Positions 39,024 to 48,264 of a stretch of 61,829 bases of DNA are shown piece after piece (the stretch's first letter is position 1; every line of letters begins with the position of its first letter). Origin of the DNA: an uncultured Veillonellaceae bacterium (lineage in GTDB: Bacteria; Bacillota; Negativicutes; Selenomonadales; Selenomonadaceae); NCBI GenBank assembly GCA_900315575.1, contig OMZR01000002.1, positions 1 through 61,829 on the forward strand. Reading direction: 5' to 3'. The position numbers and the translations under genes are program-made. Below the pieces are notes generated by a model. The model worked only from the letters and a program-made list of their open reading frames with translations, had not been told where the DNA came from and searched no databases.

Positions 39024-41249
39024 ATGCTGGTATCAGATATCGACAAGATCATCGCAGGCGAGCTCGGCGTGCGGCGGGAGCAGGTGGCAAAGGCGATCGA
39101 GCTCCTCGACGACGGCAACACGGTGCCGTTCATTGCGCGCTACCGCAAGGAGGCGACGGGATCGCTCGAGGACGAGCAGCTGCGGACGCTCGCGGAACGT
39201 CTCGACTACCTGCGCGGCCTCGCGAAGCGGCAGGAGGAAATCACGCAAAAAATCGACGAGCAGGGCAAGCTGACGCCTGAGCTCCGCGCCGCGATCGAGC
39301 GCGCGACGAAGCTCCAGGAGCTCGAAGACCTCTACCTGCCATACAAGCAGAAGCGCCGCACGCGGGCGCAGATGGCACGCGAAAAAGGACTCGGGCCGCT
39401 CGCTGACGCGATGATGGCGCAGGAAGCGCAAAGCGGCACGCCGCTCTCGGCCGCGGCCGCCTTCGTTGACGCAGAAAAAGGCGTCGAGACCGCCGAAGAC
39501 GCTCTCGCAGGCGCGCGCGACATCGTCGCCGAAGTCGTCAGCGAAGACGCAAAGCTCCGCCAGCAGCTGCGCAAAAAACTCTGGCAGACAGGCACGCTCC
39601 AAACAGAACTCACCTCCGACAAGGACGGCAAGCAGCCCGAGGACGCGCAGACGTTCCTGATGTACGCGGACTACAGCGAGCCCATCCGCACGCTGCCGTC
39701 GCACCGCGTGCTCGCCATCAACCGCGGCGAAAAGAAAGGCTGCCTGCGCGTCAAGGTCGCCTTTGACCACGAGGCGGCCGTCGACCAGATGTTCGCACAT
39801 GTCTACCGCCACAAATGCATCTTCACGGACGAGCTCCGCGCCGCGCTCGAGGACGGCGAGAACCGCCTGCTGTTCCCCGCGCTCGAACGCGAAATCCGCA
39901 CGCAGCTTACGGAGAATGCCGAGGCGCAGGCCATCCATGTCTTTGGCGTGAACCTGCGGCAGCTGCTCCTGCAGGCGCCGCTCGGCGGCCATGTCGTCAT
40001 GGGGCTTGACCCCGGCTACCGCACGGGCTGCAAGATGGCGGTCGTCGATGCGACGGGCCGTGTCGTCGACCACGGCGTGCTCCAGCTCACGAAGAGCGAT
40101 GCCGAGCGCGAAGCCTCGGCCAAGAAAGTCCTCGCACTCATCAAGAAGCATCATGTCACGCTGCTTTCCATCGGCAACGGCACGGCAAGCTACGAGACGG
40201 AACAGTTCGCCGCGAACCTGATTGCCGAACATCACCTCACGAACGTCCATTACCTCATTACGAACGAAGCCGGCGCCTCCGTCTACTCGGCCTCGAAACT
40301 CGCAAAGGAAGAACTGCCCGAGTACGACGTCACGATCCGCGGCGCCGTCTCGATCGCGCGCCGCGTGCAGGACCCGCTGGCCGAGCTCGTCAAGATCGAC
40401 CCTCAGGCCATCGGCGTCGGCCAGTACCAGCACGATGTCAACCAGAAGGAGCTCGCGCAAGCGCTCGACGCCGTCATCGAGGCCGCCGTCAACCATGTCG
40501 GCGTCGATCTCAACACGGCGAGCCCGGCCCTGCTTTCGCATATCGCAGGCATCACAGCGGCCACGGCGAAGAACATCGTCGCCTGGCGCGACGAGAACGG
40601 CCGTTTCACGGGACGCCGCCAGCTCCTCAAAGTGCCGCGCCTCGGCCCGGCCGCATTCACGCAGTGTGCGGGCTTCCTGCGCATCCACGGCGGCACGTCG
40701 CCGCTTGACGACACGCCCGTGCATCCCGAATCGTACGCACTTGCCGAAAAGCTCCTCGACCACCTCGGCTTTTCACTCGAAGACCTCAAGAGCAAAGATG
40801 ACCTCGCCCTGCTCGCCGCGAAGCGCAAGCTGCTGACGAAGGACAAAGAAGCCGCGCTCGCCAAGGAGCTCGGCGCGGGCCTGCCGACCGTCCATGACAT
40901 CCTCGACGCCCTCGTCGCACCGGGCCGCGATCCGCGCGAAGACCTGCCCGCACCGCTGACACGCCAAGCCATCGTGAAGCTCTCCGACATCCAGCCCGGC
41001 ACGATCCTGCGTGGCACGGTGCGCAACATCACGGATTTCGGTGCCTTCGTCGACATCGGCATCAAGACGGCCGGCCTCATCCACATCTCCCAGCTGTCGA
41101 AAAAACGTGTCAAGCACCCGCTCGACGTCGTCTCGGTCGGCGACATCCTGCGCGTCAAAGTCATCAGCGTCGATGAAAAGCGCGGCCGCATCGGCCTTTC
41201 GCTCAAAGACGTCCCGCAAGAGGAAACCCGAAAGGAGGCGCGGGCATGA
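39024..41249 (+). CDS. tex: Tex-family transcription accessory protein
   Basis: This is a 741-residue cytosolic RNA-binding protein. It has an N-terminal helix-turn-helix-rich Tex domain (FIARYRKEATGSLEDEQLRT, YLPYKQKRRTRAQMAREKGL) and a YqgF/RNase H-like domain (VMGLDPGYRTGCKMAVVDAT, about 325-450). Tandem helix-hairpin-helix motifs (VGVDLNTASPALLSHIAGIT) and a C-terminal S1 domain (LRGTVRNITDFGAFVDIGIK) follow. Tex proteins affect transcription and virulence genes; the exact activity is unresolved. The start is ATG 39024 with GGAAAGGA upstream. Its last codon overlaps the cobT start (ATGA), so the two are translationally coupled. Confidence 0.96.
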   Translation: MLVSDIDKIIAGELGVRREQVAKAIELLDDGNTVPFIARYRKEATGSLEDEQLRTLAERLDYLRGLAKRQEEITQKIDEQGKLTPELRAAIERATKLQELEDLYLPYKQKRRTRAQMAREKGLGPLADAMMAQEAQSGTPLSAAAAFVDAEKGVETAEDALAGARDIVAEVVSEDAKLRQQLRKKLWQTGTLQTELTSDKDGKQPEDAQTFLMYADYSEPIRTLPSHRVLAINRGEKKGCLRVKVAFDHEAAVDQMFAHVYRHKCIFTDELRAALEDGENRLLFPALEREIRTQLTENAEAQAIHVFGVNLRQLLLQAPLGGHVVMGLDPGYRTGCKMAVVDATGRVVDHGVLQLTKSDAEREASAKKVLALIKKHHVTLLSIGNGTASYETEQFAANLIAEHHLTNVHYLITNEAGASVYSASKLAKEELPEYDVTIRGAVSIARRVQDPLAELVKIDPQAIGVGQYQHDVNQKELAQALDAVIEAAVNHVGVDLNTASPALLSHIAGITAATAKNIVAWRDENGRFTGRRQLLKVPRLGPAAFTQCAGFLRIHGGTSPLDDTPVHPESYALAEKLLDHLGFSLEDLKSKDDLALLAAKRKLLTKDKEAALAKELGAGLPTVHDILDALVAPGRDPREDLPAPLTRQAIVKLSDIQPGTILRGTVRNITDFGAFVDIGIKTAGLIHISQLSKKRVKHPLDVVSVGDILRVKVISVDEKRGRIGLSLKDVPQEETRKEARA

Positions 41250-43138
41250 GCCTGCTCGAAGAAACCATCGCCAAAATCCAGCCCGCCGATCATCCCGCCG
41301 CCATGGAGGCCGCCGCGGCGCTCGACCAGCTCTTTCCCGAGCAGCAGCCGAGCGCACTCCAGAGCCTGCTGCTGCGCTACCTCCGCGCGACGGGAAAGCC
41401 TGCAAAAAAAGACCTGCGCTGCTGCACGATCATCTGCTGCGCTGACCACGGCGTCGCCGCGCAGGGCGTCAGCGCCTACCCGCCCGAAACGACCGTCCAG
41501 ATGACGGCGAACTATCTCATCGCGCAGGGCGCGGCCGCCAATGCGTTCGCGGGCTTTGCTGGCTCCGACCTGCTCGTCGTCGACATGGGCATTGCGGCTG
41601 ACACGACGGGCATCCCCGGCCTCGTGCGCCACTACCGCATCGCGGCCGGCACGCGCGACATGACGCAGGGCGCAGCCATGACGCGCGCGCAGGCGCAGCA
41701 GGCCGTCGAGACGGGCATCAAGCTCGCCAACGCCATCGCCGCGCAGGGCTACACCTGCTTTCTGCCCGGCGAGATGGGCATCTCGAACACGACGGCGTCC
41801 GCCTGCATCGCGGCGACGCTCTGCGGCCTGACGGCCGAGCAGGCCACGGGCCGCGGCACGAACATCTCCGACGAGCGCCTGCAGAAAAAAATCCGCGTCG
41901 TCAAAGAGGCGCTGCTCGTCAACCAGCCAAATCCCAGCGACGGCCTCGACGTCCTCGCGAAAGTCGGCGGCTTCGAGCTCGGCGCGATTGCCGGCCTCAT
42001 GCTCGGAGCGGCTGCGAGCCATGCCGTCACGATTCTTGACGCCTTCAACTCCAGCGCCGCCGCGCTCATCGCACAGGCGCTCGCGCCCGCCGTCACCGAC
42101 TACCTGCTGCCGTCGCACCAGGGCGGCGAACGCGCGCACGGCGCGGCGCTTGCCAAGCTCGGCCTCACGCCGCACCTCTTCCTCGACATCAAGCTCGGCG
42201 AAGCCTGCGGCTCGTCCATCACGGCCCGCTTCCTCGCGCTCGCGCTCGACGAGCTCGACGCCCTGCACGCGGAAAACGGCGACAAGGACATCGACTCCGA
42301 CCTCTACCTCGAACGGATGCCCGCCAAAGCGCCGAGCGTCACCGACAAGACCTTCAACTTTTACTTCCAGAGCATGCCTGCACCCGACCATGCGAGCATG
42401 ATGGCCTGCCTGAAGCGTCTCGACCACCTCGCAAAGCCTCTCTACAGCCTCGGCCATCTCGAGAGCATCGCCACGGAGTTTTCTGGCATCGCCTGCGAAG
42501 GACGCCCCGAAAAAGAGCAGGAACTGGCGCTGCTGCTCTTTTCCACGCAAAAAGAAACCGCACCTCGCCAGCGCATCCTTTCGGCTGCCGCGCACACCAT
42601 CGAGATGCCTGTCACCATCGGCCGCCTGCGCACAGGCCTGCCGCCGACGGCGGCGTTTGACTTCGCCCGCGTGACGGCCGAAGACATCACGCTCGACGCG
42701 ACGATTCTCGGCCTCGGCCTGACGGAAGACATCGCCGCGCCGCTCGCCGATGCGCTCATGGACGACGACGGCGAACTGCTCTACGCACCTGAGGACTTCC
42801 TCGCGCATGTGCCAAAGGACCTCCAGCTGCCCGTCTCCGCGCTCATCGGCGCCATCATCGCCGCTGCGCACAACAGCACGATGATCCTGCCGTCCGACGC
42901 TGCGACCGAGCTCGTCTCGCGCTACACCGAGCGCCTCGCGCCCGACGTGCGGCCGTACCTCCTGCACCTCGACGGCACGCTGACGAACCTCGGCGACACA
43001 CTGCCCGGCATCACAGCCTGTGCCGGCGCCCTCATCGTCGAAGCCGCACTGACCGTGCTCAACGACATGAAGACATTTGAAGAAACAAAAGTCGCCATCG
43101 CCAACGACGGGCCGGGAAAAGAAAAACAAAAACACTGA
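41246..43138 (+). CDS. cobT: Double-domain CobT: nicotinate-nucleotide-dimethylbenzimidazole phosphoribosyltransferase
   Basis: CobT activates the lower-ligand base for cobamide synthesis. The 630 residues are nearly twice the usual 350. The first half (about 1-345) is a complete CobT: CADHGVAAQGVSAYP, PPETTVQMTANYLIAQGAAA, GEMGISNTTASACIAATLCG, GRGTNISDERLQKK, PSHQGGERAHGAAL and the catalytic-region LGEACGSS. The second half (about 360-615) is a degenerate CobT fold: DHLAKPLYSLGHLESIAT at its start, GAIIAAAHNSTMILPSDAAT and ALIVEAALTVLNDMKTFEE at its end. It lacks the DHGV, ERAH and GEG motifs. It overlaps tex by 4 nt and faces the cobalt transporter genes, fitting a cobamide context. Confidence 0.9.
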   Translation: MSLLEETIAKIQPADHPAAMEAAAALDQLFPEQQPSALQSLLLRYLRATGKPAKKDLRCCTIICCADHGVAAQGVSAYPPETTVQMTANYLIAQGAAANAFAGFAGSDLLVVDMGIAADTTGIPGLVRHYRIAAGTRDMTQGAAMTRAQAQQAVETGIKLANAIAAQGYTCFLPGEMGISNTTASACIAATLCGLTAEQATGRGTNISDERLQKKIRVVKEALLVNQPNPSDGLDVLAKVGGFELGAIAGLMLGAAASHAVTILDAFNSSAAALIAQALAPAVTDYLLPSHQGGERAHGAALAKLGLTPHLFLDIKLGEACGSSITARFLALALDELDALHAENGDKDIDSDLYLERMPAKAPSVTDKTFNFYFQSMPAPDHASMMACLKRLDHLAKPLYSLGHLESIATEFSGIACEGRPEKEQELALLLFSTQKETAPRQRILSAAAHTIEMPVTIGRLRTGLPPTAAFDFARVTAEDITLDATILGLGLTEDIAAPLADALMDDDGELLYAPEDFLAHVPKDLQLPVSALIGAIIAAAHNSTMILPSDAATELVSRYTERLAPDVRPYLLHLDGTLTNLGDTLPGITACAGALIVEAALTVLNDMKTFEETKVAIANDGPGKEKQKH

Positions 43139-43201: not shown

Positions 43202-44809
43202 TCACAAATTTTCAACGGTAACCGTATGATCTTTATGAACGTGAAGAATCTTCGTAGCAAAGCTGTGTGCAAATGCCTCGTCGTGCGTGGAAAAGATGAT
43301 GGTTTTGCCCGCCGCCCAGAGCTCGCGCAGGAGCGACTGCAGGCTTTCAAGGCCATCATCGTCGAGATTCGCCGTTGGCTCGTCAAACGTCCAGACAGCG
43401 GGATTCACGGTGAAGATGGCCGCCATGGCGACGCGCCGTTTCTCGCCACCAGAAAGCGTGTACGGCGCGCGGCCGCGCAGGTGCGCGATTTTGAAAAAGC
43501 CGAGCGCAGCCGCGACGCGTTCCTGCACCTGCGCATCCGCAAGCCCCATCTGCCGCGGGCCGAACGCGAGCTCCTCCTCGACGGTCGGGCAGAACAGCAT
43601 CGCGCCGGGGTCCTGCCAGATGAAGCCCACGCGCTGGTGAAACCATTTGCTGTAGCGGTGCTCGCGCATCTTTTCGGCCGTGATTTCCGTGCCCTCGAAG
43701 AGGTAGCGGCCCGTTTCAGGGAAATGGATGCCGTTCAGCAGGGAGAGCAGCGTCGATTTGCCTGCGCCATTCGGGCCGAGGATGGCGACCGTGTCGCCGC
43801 GGCGGATGGTGAAGGTGACATGAACGAGAGAAGGAACGTTGTCGTAGGCAAAGCAGACGTCGGTGAAGGTCAACAATTCTTTCGAGCTCCTATCTGTTAT
43901 TCCCATGGCTCCCCCTTTGGGGGAGCTGTCACCCACAAGGGTGACTGAGAGGGTGGGGGCGTTTGAAAACTTCGATACGTCGTTACCCTCTCCGCCCCTT
44001 CGGGGCACCTCCCCCAACGGGGGAGGCATGGGGAATCGCAAGCCATAATTCCCCCGCTTCTGCGAGGGGGGCTTGTAGGTACCTACAAAGCCGCGGCAGC
44101 GCATGGCTTCGTACGTCGCCTGCGAGAGGCGGCCGGCCTGGAGGTAGAGGCTGCCGAGCACGCCGCCCATCGCGCGGCTTTTCTGACGGTTGCGGCCGAT
44201 GGAACGGAGCTTCAGGGCTACGAGCAGGCGGCCGGCTTCTTCGCCCAGCATGTAGAGCGAGCGGAGCATCGTGTCGAGCAGGAAGATGACGGTTTCCGGC
44301 ACGCGCAGCCGCGCGAGCGCCCGCGTGACGTCGTGCCACATCAGCGACTCCGCAAGCATCATGACGCCCGCCATCGTCAGGAACGATTTCCACGGCAAGA
44401 AAAGCGCGCGGCCGCCACCCGTGCTCAGGAAGAAGGCCGGCAGCACGAGCAGGAGCGAGAACAGCGCCGCTACGAGCGCCCCGCCGAGGACGCGGCGGAT
44501 GGCACGGCCGGAAAAAGCCGCAAGGACAGCGAACGCCGCAACTGTCGCGATGAAAAGCAGCGTCGTCGTCTGCGCAAGAACGATAAAGAGAATCCACGCA
44601 AAGAGCAATAAAAGCGCAACGAGCGCGGGAATCCTGCTCGTGCGTCGTCCCTGCGCGCGCAGGGAGAAAAGAATATCCATGACACGCAAAAGAGACCGGG
44701 ACAAAAATGCGTCACGGTCTCGCGAGGGATGATAGTCTTCGTCGTGTCTGGCCCAAGTGGGAAATATCGGTTCTACCTTCGCAGAATCCAATCGTTCAAA
44801 TAGATGCAT
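43202..44809 (-). CDS. cbiQ/cbiO: Fused cobalt ECF transporter CbiQ-CbiO (permease and ATPase joined by a repeat-encoded linker)
   Basis: The energising module of a cobalt importer. Residues 1-245 are CbiQ: membrane helices plus the coupling motifs MLRSLYMLGEEAGRLLVALK and YEAMRCRGF. Residues from about 310 to 535 are CbiO: Walker A GPNGAGKSTLLSLLNG, FIWQDPGAMLFCPTVEEELAFG, LSGGEKRRVAMAAIF, TFDEPTANLDDDG and STHDEAF. The 55-60 residues between them (PMPPPLGEVPRRGGEG, VTLVGDSSPKGGAMG) are translated from palindromic repeats at 43905-44075. CbiO might also start independently at ATG 43907, or at TTG 43876 behind AGGAG. The start ATG 44809 is chosen because the longer frame reads through another repeat. 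Confidence 0.85.
   Translation of the reverse strand: MHLFERLDSAKVEPIFPTWARHDEDYHPSRDRDAFLSRSLLRVMDILFSLRAQGRRTSRIPALVALLLLFAWILFIVLAQTTTLLFIATVAAFAVLAAFSGRAIRRVLGGALVAALFSLLLVLPAFFLSTGGGRALFLPWKSFLTMAGVMMLAESLMWHDVTRALARLRVPETVIFLLDTMLRSLYMLGEEAGRLLVALKLRSIGRNRQKSRAMGGVLGSLYLQAGRLSQATYEAMRCRGFVGTYKPPSQKRGNYGLRFPMPPPLGEVPRRGGEGNDVSKFSNAPTLSVTLVGDSSPKGGAMGITDRSSKELLTFTDVCFAYDNVPSLVHVTFTIRRGDTVAILGPNGAGKSTLLSLLNGIHFPETGRYLFEGTEITAEKMREHRYSKWFHQRVGFIWQDPGAMLFCPTVEEELAFGPRQMGLADAQVQERVAAALGFFKIAHLRGRAPYTLSGGEKRRVAMAAIFTVNPAVWTFDEPTANLDDDGLESLQSLLRELWAAGKTIIFSTHDEAFAHSFATKILHVHKDHTVTVENL
43905..44075. repeat. Composite of palindromic repeats (copy 7) inside the cbiQ-cbiO reading frame
   Basis: Three hairpin units lie in a row: GCTCCCCCTTTGGGGGAGC with TCACCCACAAGGGTGA; GCCCCTTCGGGGC with CCTCCCCCAACGGGGGAGG; and CCCCCGCTTCTGCGAGGGGGG. 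Two units are head to head around TTTGAAAACTTCGATACG. The composite is read in frame as protein. Confidence 0.8.
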
Positions 44810-44872
44810 CCTACCTTCGACACTCCCCCCGCCGCTCACGCGGCCCGTCCCCCCCTCTGGGAGGGGGGCTGA
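44810..44872. repeat. Dispersed palindromic repeat, copy 8
   Basis: CCTACCTTCGACACTCCCCC, CGCTCACGCG and CCCCCTCTGGGAGGGGG, between cbiM and cbiQO. Its CCTACCTTC edge, read on the minus strand as GAAGGTAGG, is the only ribosome-site-like sequence before the cbiQ ATG. Confidence 0.8.
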
Positions 44873-44888
44873 TTTTAAAGCAACGTTT

Positions 44889-45902
44889 TCAGTTTTCCGC
44901 AGAAACGTCATAATTCGTTGTTTTCTTCTTGAACGATGCAAGCACCTTGAACGCGATGATGAGCATGGCTGCGCCGAGGATGGCGGAGAGGACGTACCCC
45001 GTCACGTCGGGCATGCCTTCGACAGCATAATCAGGGAACAGTGCGTCAAATGAAAAGCCAGTCTCCATGCCCTGCGGCGTGTAGCCGAGCGCCGCACCGG
45101 ACGCTGTTGTCTCCGCGATTTCGTCCGCGCCCCATTCGCCCCAGGCCGTGCCTTCGGCGAGCAGGCCGAGCGGCGTGCCGACGATCAGGAGCGCGACGAG
45201 GGCATAGACGGCGCGGCTCGTCTTCGTGGCGACATGCGCAGTCCCACGCACGACGTCAGGCGCGGTTTTCGTCAGGTAACCGAGCACGGCCGTCGTGAAA
45301 ACGACTTCGGCGAGGCCGAAGAGCGTGAGATGGCCGAGCATCATGGCGGGAATGGAGACGCTGAGCGGATACGGGCAGTAGAGCGCCTGCCCCGCCGCGT
45401 CCTGAAAGAGCAGCGGCTGGACGCCGAACTCGACGGCCGCGCAGAACGCCGCGCCATTGATGCCGACGTAAGCGCCGATGCCCGCCGCCGCGATGGCGTG
45501 CGCAGGCATGAGCTTTTTCACGAGCGAATAGATGCCATAGCCCGCAAATGGCAGCACGAACGCCATGTTGAAGCAGTTCGCGCCGAATGCGAGGATACCG
45601 CCGTCGCCGAAGAACACGGCCTGCACCAGCAGAGCGACGCTGATGGCGAGGCACGCCGCCCACGGACCGAACAGCACGGCCAGCAGCGTGCCACCGACCG
45701 CATGCCCCGTCGTGCCGCCCGGCAGCGGGATGTTGAACATCATCGCGAGAAACGCGAACGCCGCGCCAACGCCGAGGAGCGGCAACCGCTCCTTCGGGAT
45801 TTCTTTCTTCACCTTTGCAACCGCCATGTACCAGGCCGGTGCCATCGCGAGCGTCATGACGGCGCACGTCTCGGGGCTCAGGTAGTTTTCGGGAATATGC
45901 AT
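44889..45902 (-). CDS. cbiM: Cobalt ECF transporter substrate-binding component CbiM with CbiN/PDGLE-like tail
   Basis: This is the S component of the cobalt (or nickel) importer. From ATG 45902 it has 337 residues. The start is certain because CbiM/NikM proteins use their own N-terminal Met-His to hold the metal; here it is MHIPENYLSPETC, with AAAGGAGG upstream. CbiM membrane domain motifs are NIPLPGGTTGHAVGGTLLAV, FGANCFNMAFVLPFAGY and VGINGAAFCAAVEFGVQP. The C-terminal 110 residues add two helices and an extracytoplasmic loop (SGAALGYTPQGMETGFSFDA, FPDYAVEGMPDVTGYVLSAI), the CbiN/PDGLE role fused on. It is followed by a repeat and cbiQO. Confidence 0.93.
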   Translation of the reverse strand: MHIPENYLSPETCAVMTLAMAPAWYMAVAKVKKEIPKERLPLLGVGAAFAFLAMMFNIPLPGGTTGHAVGGTLLAVLFGPWAACLAISVALLVQAVFFGDGGILAFGANCFNMAFVLPFAGYGIYSLVKKLMPAHAIAAAGIGAYVGINGAAFCAAVEFGVQPLLFQDAAGQALYCPYPLSVSIPAMMLGHLTLFGLAEVVFTTAVLGYLTKTAPDVVRGTAHVATKTSRAVYALVALLIVGTPLGLLAEGTAWGEWGADEIAETTASGAALGYTPQGMETGFSFDALFPDYAVEGMPDVTGYVLSAILGAAMLIIAFKVLASFKKKTTNYDVSAEN

Positions 45903-45923
45903 AGGGATGGCCTCCTTTGGGTC

Positions 45924-45958
45924 AAAAAAATCGGGTACGCTGTTATCGTACCCGATTT
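45924..45958 (-). terminator. Strong hairpin with T-run in the cbiM leader
   Basis: Minus strand AAATCGGGTACG, loop ATAACAG, CGTACCCGATT followed by TTTTT. It lies 22 nt before the cbiM ATG and about 140 nt after the ahbD stop. It is either the end of the ahbCD transcript or an attenuator for cbiM. Confidence 0.75.
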
Positions 45959-45971
45959 CTTGTGTTGTTGG

Positions 45972-46046
45972 AAGCCCCCTAGGGGGTAAGAAAGCGCGGA
46001 GATCCGCAAACTCCAGCCTCCCTCTTTGAGGGAGGGGGACCGCAAT
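45972..46046. repeat. Dispersed palindromic repeats, copy 9
   Basis: AGCCCCCTAGGGGGT followed by CAGCCTCCCTCTTTGAGGGAGG. It fills the ahbD-cbiM gap; no riboswitch consensus is recognised there. Confidence 0.6.
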
Positions 46047-46096
46047 ATAAGGTACAATCGCAACAGCCCGAAAAGCTGGCAAAGGCAGAAACGCAT

Positions 46097-47092
46097 TTAT
46101 CCCTTCCTGCCGTGGTACAAGCACCAGGGCTCTTCGGCCATGTAGTCGCCGTCGTGGTAGATGGCCGCACGGGCGCGGCAGCCGCCGCAGACGCGCTGGT
46201 ATTTGCAGGTGCCGCAGCCGCCGTCGTATTTCATTGTGCGGAGCTTCTGCAGCACGGGATTGTTCTTCCAGATTTCATCAAATGGCGTGTCGCGGACGTC
46301 GCCGAGGTATTCTTTGAGATACGCGCACGGCTGGACTTTGCCTTTCGGGCTGATGATGCAGTACGAGAGGCCTGCAAGACAGCCGCGATGGAAGCGGCTC
46401 TTCAAACCGAGCTCGGCCGCGATGCGCAGGAACTGCGGCGCACACGTCGGCTTGAGCTCGATGGGGACAGTCTGCTGCTTTCGCATGATGCGCGTCAGGA
46501 CGTCTTCATACTGCTCGGCGCGCAGGCTTTCCTCCTCGATGGTCGCGGCGCGCCCTGTCGGCACGAGGAAGAAGAAGTGATGCGCGCGCGCACCGATCTC
46601 GACGGCGAAATCGATCATGTCCTCGAGTTCGGGCGCGTTCCAGTCCATAACGGTCGTGTGAATCTGGAACGGCAGGCCGGCCGCCTTGCAGTTCTTCATG
46701 CCATCGACCGCACCCTGCCAGCCGCCCGGAAACGAGCGGAACTTGTCGTGCTTTTCCGCGTCGAGCGAGTCGAGCGAGATGCCCATGGCCCGTGCGCCGG
46801 CCGCTTTGAGGTCTTTCGCCATCTGCGGCGTGATCAGCGTGCCATTCGTGCCGAAGACGGGGAACAGGCCGAGGCTGTCGGCAAATTTCACGAGCTCGAG
46901 GATGTCGGGCCGCATGAGCGGCTCGCCGCCCGAGAAAATCATGATCTGGAAGCCTGCGCGCTTGATTTCGGTCAGGAGCTTTTTCGCGTCGGCCGTCGAG
47001 AGCTCGTCCTCGGCCTTGCAGCCAGCATCGCGGTAGCAGTGGGCGCAGTACATGTTGCAGGCGTTCGTCACATTCCAAGAGACAATATTCAT
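46097..47092 (-). CDS. ahbD: Radical SAM heme synthase-like protein AhbD (NirJ2-like)
   Basis: This 331-residue radical SAM protein has a SPASM-type C-terminus. In the siroheme-dependent pathway AhbD decarboxylates iron-coproporphyrin III to heme b. The [4Fe-4S]/SAM motif is CNMYCAHC (about 12-19), followed by IFSGGEPLMRPDI and GISLDSL. The C-terminal cysteines for auxiliary clusters appear in KPTCAPQFL, HRGCLAGLSYCIISP, VQPCAYLKEYLGD and CGTCKYQRVCGGC. It overlaps ahbC by 4 nt. The pairing of two different radical SAM genes, one with the AhbC-type N-terminus, is what supports this assignment. A role in another tetrapyrrole or peptide modification is possible. Confidence 0.75.
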   Translation of the reverse strand: MNIVSWNVTNACNMYCAHCYRDAGCKAEDELSTADAKKLLTEIKRAGFQIMIFSGGEPLMRPDILELVKFADSLGLFPVFGTNGTLITPQMAKDLKAAGARAMGISLDSLDAEKHDKFRSFPGGWQGAVDGMKNCKAAGLPFQIHTTVMDWNAPELEDMIDFAVEIGARAHHFFFLVPTGRAATIEEESLRAEQYEDVLTRIMRKQQTVPIELKPTCAPQFLRIAAELGLKSRFHRGCLAGLSYCIISPKGKVQPCAYLKEYLGDVRDTPFDEIWKNNPVLQKLRTMKYDGGCGTCKYQRVCGGCRARAAIYHDGDYMAEEPWCLYHGRKG

Positions 47093-48264
47093 AAGCCGAT
47101 CTCCTCATCCGTCAGGTAGCAGGCGGGGTCGGACGCCCAGAAGTCGCCCGTGACCGCCTCGGCGCGCGTGCGGAAATTGCCATTGCAGCGGTCCAGCCAC
47201 TTGCATTTTGCACAGCGCCCTTTGAGCAGCGGCTTGCGGTCTTTGAGGCCCGCCATGATGGGGTTCGTGACGTCCTGCCAGATGTCGCCGAACGCGCGCT
47301 CGCGCACGTTGCCGAATGTATGATGCTGCGTGAACTGGTCGGGATGGACGTAGCCCAAGGGATCAACCTCGCCGAATGCGATGCCGGAGCGGTTGCCGCC
47401 GTTCATCGAAAGATACTTCATGATTTGCTCGGCGGCCGCGTCGTCGCCCGCTTCCTTTGCTTTCAGATACATATAGATGCCGTCGCAGTGGTTGTCGACA
47501 GTCAGGATTTCTTTCTGGAGGCCGCGCGCCTCGTAGTCCTTCGTGCGGCGGATGATCGTGTCCATGGCCGCGCGTGATTCCTCATGCGTGAGGTCGTCGT
47601 GCACCATCGCCTCGCCGCGGCCGCTGTAGACGAGATGGTAGAAGCAGACGCGGTTGATGTTCTCGGCCTCGATGAAATCGAAAATCTTGTCGAGCTCGCG
47701 CGCGTTGTGCTGGTTGATCGTGAAGCGCAGGCCGACGCGCTGGCCGACGGCCACGCAGTTCTCGATGCCCTTCATCGCCTTTTCGTAGGCGCCGGGGGCG
47801 CCGCGGAACTTGTCATTGACATCGCGCAAGCCGTCGAGCGAGATGCCGACGTAGCCGACGCCGATGTCCTTGATGCGCTGCGCGACATCACGCGTGATCA
47901 GCGTCCCATTCGTCGAAAGCGTCGGCCGCACGCCGGCCTTTGCCGCATAGTCCGCGAGCTCGAAGAAATCGGGCCGGATCAGCGGCTCGCCGCCCGAGAA
48001 CAGCAGCACGGGCACATGGAACGCCGCGAGGTCGTCGATGAATTTCTTCGCCTCGTCCGTCGTGAGCTCGTCCTTGTATTTTTTCGCATCGGACTTCATG
48101 TAGCAGTGCATGCACTTGAGGTTGCACGTCTTCGTCGAGTTCCAGACAACGACGGGGCCGACGCCCTCGGACGCGCCATTCTTCATGCTATGCGCGGATT
48201 TCGTATAGCGCAGGCGGTCGCCGAAATAGTCCCGCGCGAACAGCAGTTTCGTCACACTGATCAT
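47089..48264 (-). CDS. ahbC: Radical SAM protein AhbC (12,18-didecarboxysiroheme deacetylase; NirJ1-like)
   Basis: This 391-residue radical SAM enzyme would remove two acetate side chains from 12,18-didecarboxysiroheme on the way to heme. The N-terminus ISVTKLLFARDYFGDRLRYT and GPVVVWNSTKTCNLKCMHCY is the AhbC/NirJ pattern, with cluster motif CNLKCMHC. LLFSGGEPLIRPDF and YVGISLDGLRDVND follow. The C-terminal region binds further iron-sulfur (GRCAKCKWLDRCNGN, PACYL). It is the first gene of the ahbCD pair, downstream of a TetR regulator on the same strand. The ahbAB genes are not in this window. Confidence 0.8.
   Translation of the reverse strand: MISVTKLLFARDYFGDRLRYTKSAHSMKNGASEGVGPVVVWNSTKTCNLKCMHCYMKSDAKKYKDELTTDEAKKFIDDLAAFHVPVLLFSGGEPLIRPDFFELADYAAKAGVRPTLSTNGTLITRDVAQRIKDIGVGYVGISLDGLRDVNDKFRGAPGAYEKAMKGIENCVAVGQRVGLRFTINQHNARELDKIFDFIEAENINRVCFYHLVYSGRGEAMVHDDLTHEESRAAMDTIIRRTKDYEARGLQKEILTVDNHCDGIYMYLKAKEAGDDAAAEQIMKYLSMNGGNRSGIAFGEVDPLGYVHPDQFTQHHTFGNVRERAFGDIWQDVTNPIMAGLKDRKPLLKGRCAKCKWLDRCNGNFRTRAEAVTGDFWASDPACYLTDEEIGL

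Follow-up and report, generated by a model that had tools for sequence, protein, structure and literature searches.

The cbiQ and cbiO genes of the bacterium studied here lie in one stop-free reading frame of the minus strand, which runs from 44809 to 43202 of the window (the whole stretch of 61,829 nucleotides that was analysed) and encodes 535 amino acids comprising CbiQ, a linker and CbiO. We consider it probable that this frame represents a genuine T-A fusion in a group I ECF metal transporter, joining the CbiQ coupling protein to the CbiO ATPase, and that its history, as read from sequence comparison, was one of helix loss in CbiQ, joining of cbiQ and cbiO, and growth of repeats in a disordered tether.

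The Fused Reading Frame and Its Parts

As the sequence-only reading had reported, the frame is open from its ATG to its stop codon. Pfam domains matched CbiQ at residues 57-243 and ABC_tran at residues 330-480. The features of this region are as follows.

43202 to 44809, minus strand: fused cbiQ-cbiO frame, ATG at 44809 and stop at 43204-43202.
44087 to 44764, minus strand: CbiQ part alignable with unfused CbiQ (residues 16-241), ending in CRGF; last transmembrane helix absent.
43892 to 44086, minus strand: linker (residues 242-306), translated for the most part from hairpin repeat and predicted to be disordered.
43205 to 43891, minus strand: CbiO ATPase part.
44889 to 46124, minus strand: upstream gene, a frame with cbiM and a C-terminal PDGLE (CbiN-like) part; its Pfam match starts at residue 76.

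The CbiQ part matched nearly the whole Pfam CbiQ profile (62.5 bits, profile positions 5-210 of 216), and the two Arg signatures of the CbiQ coupling helices, LRS and CRG, were conserved with all relatives. These are two of the hallmarks of a group I ECF T subunit; the third, the final helix, was missing. The CbiO part has an ABC ATPase domain with a CbiO-type match, as is found in CbiO ECF ATPases, and its top NCBIfam match was cbiO, yet under the curated cut-off (176 of 212 bits). In an AlphaFold model of the fusion, the CbiQ helices and CbiO were predicted with confidence, and residues 226-303 had a pLDDT below 50 and were disordered. The dN/dS ratio was 0.10-0.24 in both parts, which indicates that purifying selection acts on CbiQ and CbiO alike. 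Because the fusion gene follows cbiM with its PDGLE part, it most likely encodes a cobalt or nickel importer whose T and A subunits share one chain.

The Fusion Is Shared by Three Species

We searched 60 relatives and then the whole family (189 genomes). This CbiQ was present in 45 of the 189 genomes and fused in only three, namely the window species (G000), G001 (RUG12578), and G006 (same contig as Selenomonas sp. SUG490). The three fusions come from independent assemblies, all derived from metagenomes, and the fused CbiQs formed one clade in the CbiQ tree (support 100/100). Elsewhere in the family, CbiQ frames did not exceed 331 amino acids and were too short to include CbiO, except in G004, G005, G060, and G061, all four of which proved on checking to have a normal separate CbiQ. 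In G004 and G005, unfused members of the same genus, the cbiQ stop and cbiO start share a few bases, the two genes lying in different frames. G060 and G061, with their long frames, were considered as fusions and rejected, being unfused with a normal last helix. In a class-wide CbiQ scan, no frame longer than 418 amino acids was found among the best 150 matches listed, and no paper on a CbiQ-CbiO fusion was found in the literature searched.

The span from CRGF to LTF was 29, 58, and 78 residues in the three fusions, in frame in each case, and no stop codon separated CbiQ from CbiO in any of them despite linker changes of 20-49 codons. When the 191-nt linker of the window was shuffled at constant composition, the given frame stayed open in 13% of cases, so an open linker in one genome is weak evidence. 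The strong evidence for the fusion is its retention in frame by three species with differing linkers.

The sequence-only reading had named a sequencing error hiding a stop codon as one thing that could overturn it. Hairpin repeats are hard to assemble and all three fusions were assembled from metagenomes; however, the same fusion appears in three independent assemblies, in one of them without a linker repeat, and each lacks the helix. It is thus highly improbable that the two frames were joined by an assembly or sequencing error.

Two neighbouring loci also differ from expectation or between species. The CobT frame (window positions 41246-43138) encodes 630 amino acids with two stretches matching the phosphoribosyltransferase family (Pfam), for an enzyme usually about 350 amino acids long. 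Between the window and G006, the two radical SAM proteins adjoining cbiM (46097-48264) show 98% identity, whereas over 43202-46124 the identity is 84% for CbiM and 82% for CbiO, a contrast that suggests patchwork exchange or uneven constraint.

Hairpin Repeats in the Linker

In the window species, the linker between CRGF (which ends at residue 241) and RSSKELLTF consists of two facing halves of a hairpin repeat and a third hairpin.

About 44040 to 44076, no strand assigned: first hairpin of the linker (CAAGCCCCCCTCGCAGAAGCGGGGG...GGCTTG), found in the window species alone.
43985 to 44027, minus strand: left half of the linker repeat core (GCCTCCCCC...GGAGAGGGT), also in the G006 linker, not in that of G001.
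43907 to 43954, plus strand: right half of the core, of the same family but facing the other way; neither the G006 nor the G001 linker has it.

Only one half-element is therefore present in G006, and the linker of G001 (...CRGFTGTYGPQPAPPVFSFDRSSKDMLTF) has no hairpin repeat. The predicted RNA fold of the window linker had an energy of -106 kcal/mol (z = -5.9 against shuffles). In a similarity search, relatives of the linker repeat turned up at more than 40 further sites of the genome. A stringent 40-base pattern allowing 3 mismatches gave no second copy, and Rfam contained no family for the repeats. The linker had earlier been described as a composite of the hairpin repeats that occupy intergenic space. 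Its origin in such repeats was borne out; however, within the window the linker type occurs only in the linker, and the other repeats belong to a second, related type.

The Fused CbiQ Lacks Its Last Membrane Helix

In unfused CbiQ, CRGFTGEYP is followed by a hydrophobic helix with a nearly invariant Glu at its end. This final helix was present in 28 of the 29 unfused CbiQs examined (a count that includes L125, whose tail was read from a separate comparison) and absent from all three fusions, so that CbiQ, previously taken to be complete in the fusion, is not. The Arg signatures of the ECF T subunit lie in its cytoplasmic region (PMC3246461). By analogy with ECF topology, the last helix of CbiQ would take the C-terminus across the membrane, and its loss would leave the end of CbiQ in the cytoplasm, beside CbiO.

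The unfused CbiQs of two other genomes, G208 and G031 (L103:1465-2193 and L010:2151-2834, respectively), also lack the last helix; there, the cbiO start falls within the end of cbiQ or directly behind it, and no repeat is visible at the junction. In the CbiQ tree, G208 fell outside the group made up of the fusions, G004/G005, and G060/G061, the unfused members of which have the helix, and G031 was placed elsewhere. Given these positions, the helix was probably lost independently in G208, in G031, and in the fused clade. Helix loss can thus occur without fusion, which leaves this route to the fusion open, although G208 and G031 are not its ancestors.

A Possible Internal Start of CbiO

The former start region of cbiO can still be recognised within the fused frame.

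43887 to 43891, minus strand: AGGAG, conserved in all three fusions and possibly the ribosome site that served the former cbiO start.
43874 to 43876, minus strand: TTG at the ancestral cbiO start position, where G001 and G006 have ATG.

The alternative start described earlier is therefore real as a sequence feature (TTG 43876 behind AGGAG), with the correction that the in-frame ATG of the linker sits at 43906, not 43907. These signals raise the question of whether the long frame is nominal, CbiO being made mainly as a separate protein from AGGAG and TTG 43876 or from ATG 43906, with the fusion as a minor product. ECF modules contain two A subunits (ATPases) per T subunit, a need that a separate CbiO would serve; AGGAGCTCGAAAGA is invariant across the three fusions and the linker before it hardly alignable; and the former cbiO ATG was kept in G001 and G006. 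However, the start codon in the window is TTG, and no stop has appeared between the two parts in any of the three species through all the changes in linker length. In-frame 15-nt windows without any change account for 5% of positions in CbiO and 15% in CbiQ, so the conservation of the internal site is suggestive only, not decisive. We regard a mainly separate CbiO as unlikely. Within the preferred reading of a translated fusion, some free CbiO could still be made from the AGGAG and the former start codon, and this would help to reach two ATPases per T subunit.

Related Repeats in Other Genes

The same repeats were found in frame within other conserved genes of the genome: between the two domains of CbiA, after the G domain of MnmE, between the DNA-binding and aminotransferase domains of a MocR-type regulator, and in a CydD-CydC fusion. 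In-frame insertion of the kind known from Rickettsia, proposed from the linker, is thus a recurrent event. At the same sites, orthologues within the genus have no repeat, a repeat, or one of different length.

MnmE, CbiA, and MocR-type loci: L134, L144, and L154, with orthologues L135-L140, L145-L150, and L155-L160; strong length variation among seven related genomes.
CydD-CydC loci: L173 (G000:C64:22500-31000), L165, L166, and L167.

CydD and CydC are fused in G000, G001, G002, G006, and probably G003, and apparently separate in G004 and G005. Their linker carries one repeat in G000, G002, and G006 and none in G001, so that, by sequence comparison, this fusion parallels the CbiQ-CbiO case in occurring with or without a linker repeat.

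A repeat also overlies the start of cbiQ.

44771 to 44888, minus strand: second dispersed repeat type, supplying ATG 44809 and about 13 codons (MHLFERLDSAKVE).

This repeat-derived start, as annotated, is common to the three fused species, and the CbiQs of G004 and G005 begin with MELPAWAC without a repeat. Y1 transposases were considered as movers of the repeats but gained no support, since no repeat was found beside the Y1 genes in the flanks examined (G000, G001, and G003).

A broader proposal would make dispersed hairpin repeats general suppliers of linkers and N-termini that promote fusions (CbiQ-CbiO and CydD-CydC), lengthen tethers and provide start codons, the fused gene yielding both the fusion and free CbiO for a 1:2 stoichiometry. 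As a whole, we find this proposal distinctly doubtful.

Origin of the Fusion and Role of the Repeats

Of the other two fused species, G001 is the closer to G000 in CbiQ, MnmE, and CbiA; the MocR-type regulator places G001 nearer to G006. The CbiO tree pairs G001 with G006 (98/75), in conflict with the CbiQ tree, which suggests recombination or uneven rates. G000 and G006 share their half-element at the same place in the linker, and near it ATTCCC.ATG and ACGACGTATCGAA resemble repeat ends. From this resemblance, a shared origin of the half-element is likely and independent insertion possible. If the origin was shared, G001 lost the element yet kept the fusion; its closeness to G000 in CbiQ, MnmE, and CbiA suggests that such a loss may have taken place.

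The sequence-only reading had proposed that the repeats themselves fused the two genes. In the alignment with relatives that it suggested as a check, the repeat-free cbiQO locus of G001 was found to be fused, so the repeat is unnecessary for the fusion, and repeats are not what holds CbiQ and CbiO together. A fuller version of that proposal would have a repeat inserted between cbiQ and cbiO or at the end of cbiQ, read through so that both were fused, and later lost from G001. The half-element at the same place in G000 and G006 fits this sequence of events, as does the position of G006 outside G000 and G001 in CbiQ, MnmE, and CbiA, by which the ancestor may have had a repeat; the CydD-CydC fusion of the same clade likewise has a linker repeat. 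However, that repeat is also missing from G001 with the fusion still there, insertion alone does not explain the loss of the last CbiQ helix, and no repeat is visible at the junction in G208 and G031, which also lack that helix. A fusion made by the repeat therefore seems rather unlikely, although a repeat may have had a part in the original joining, since the common ancestor of the three species could have carried one.

In the account that we favour, CbiQ would first have lost its last transmembrane helix in one Selenomonas clade. The coupling-helix end of CbiQ would then have stayed in the cytoplasm beside CbiO, and the cbiQ and cbiO frames could have joined. Short hairpin repeats would subsequently have entered the joint in frame, so that a flexible tether of about 15 residues grew to about 65, and would be tolerated in this disordered tether, as they are in linkers of several further proteins that these genomes encode. 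We infer both the order of these steps and translation as a single protein.

Palindromic repeats that lie in frame within genes are most familiar from Rickettsia and some other genomes rich in REP elements. Across the seven related genomes studied here, at least five proteins have orthologues both with and without a repeat, which makes it possible to follow directly how linkers grow when repeats are inserted. The CbiQ-CbiO case shows how loss of the last T-subunit helix can open the way to an ECF T-A fusion, and the fusions offer a natural test of whether the last helix and separate ATPases are needed.

Comparison with Known Systems

The in-frame spread of the repeats appears to be a process in Negativicutes resembling that of Rickettsia palindromic elements (RPE) and REP elements, the likeness being one of process only. 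RPE are palindromic repeats of about 150 bp, found in frame in many protein genes and translated (PMC10969869). The Selenomonas repeats are likewise palindromic and dispersed, and they sit in frame in several unrelated genes that also have orthologues without a repeat, but they are GC-rich, occur in Negativicutes, and were found mainly in interdomain linkers, including those of fused proteins. A limited literature search found no in-frame palindromes in linkers of fused proteins with repeat-free orthologues in Negativicutes.

Intragenic REP elements are short palindromes, often in opposed pairs, with clusters inside ORFs coding for 43-82 residues, and it has been argued that their insertions may fall in flexible linkers or loops (PMC3733652). 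The Selenomonas repeats are also short palindromes with halves facing each other inside ORFs. Unlike in REP/RAYT systems, the Y1 transposase genes of G000, G001, and G003 show no such repeat in the flanks examined.

The cobalt ECF transporter CbiMQO (PDB 5x3x, 5x41) provided the best match to CbiO by sequence and fold (40% identity), and the LRS and CRG signatures of CbiQ are kept in the fusion. CbiQ and CbiO are separate chains in CbiMQO, whereas in the Selenomonas fusion they form one chain and CbiQ lacks its last helix. BioN is a T subunit with four membrane helices instead of five (PMC6828968), so a final helix is a usual, not a universal, mark of T subunits. Both BioN and the fused CbiQ have four helices, but BioN is a separate protein of a biotin transporter, with no fusion.
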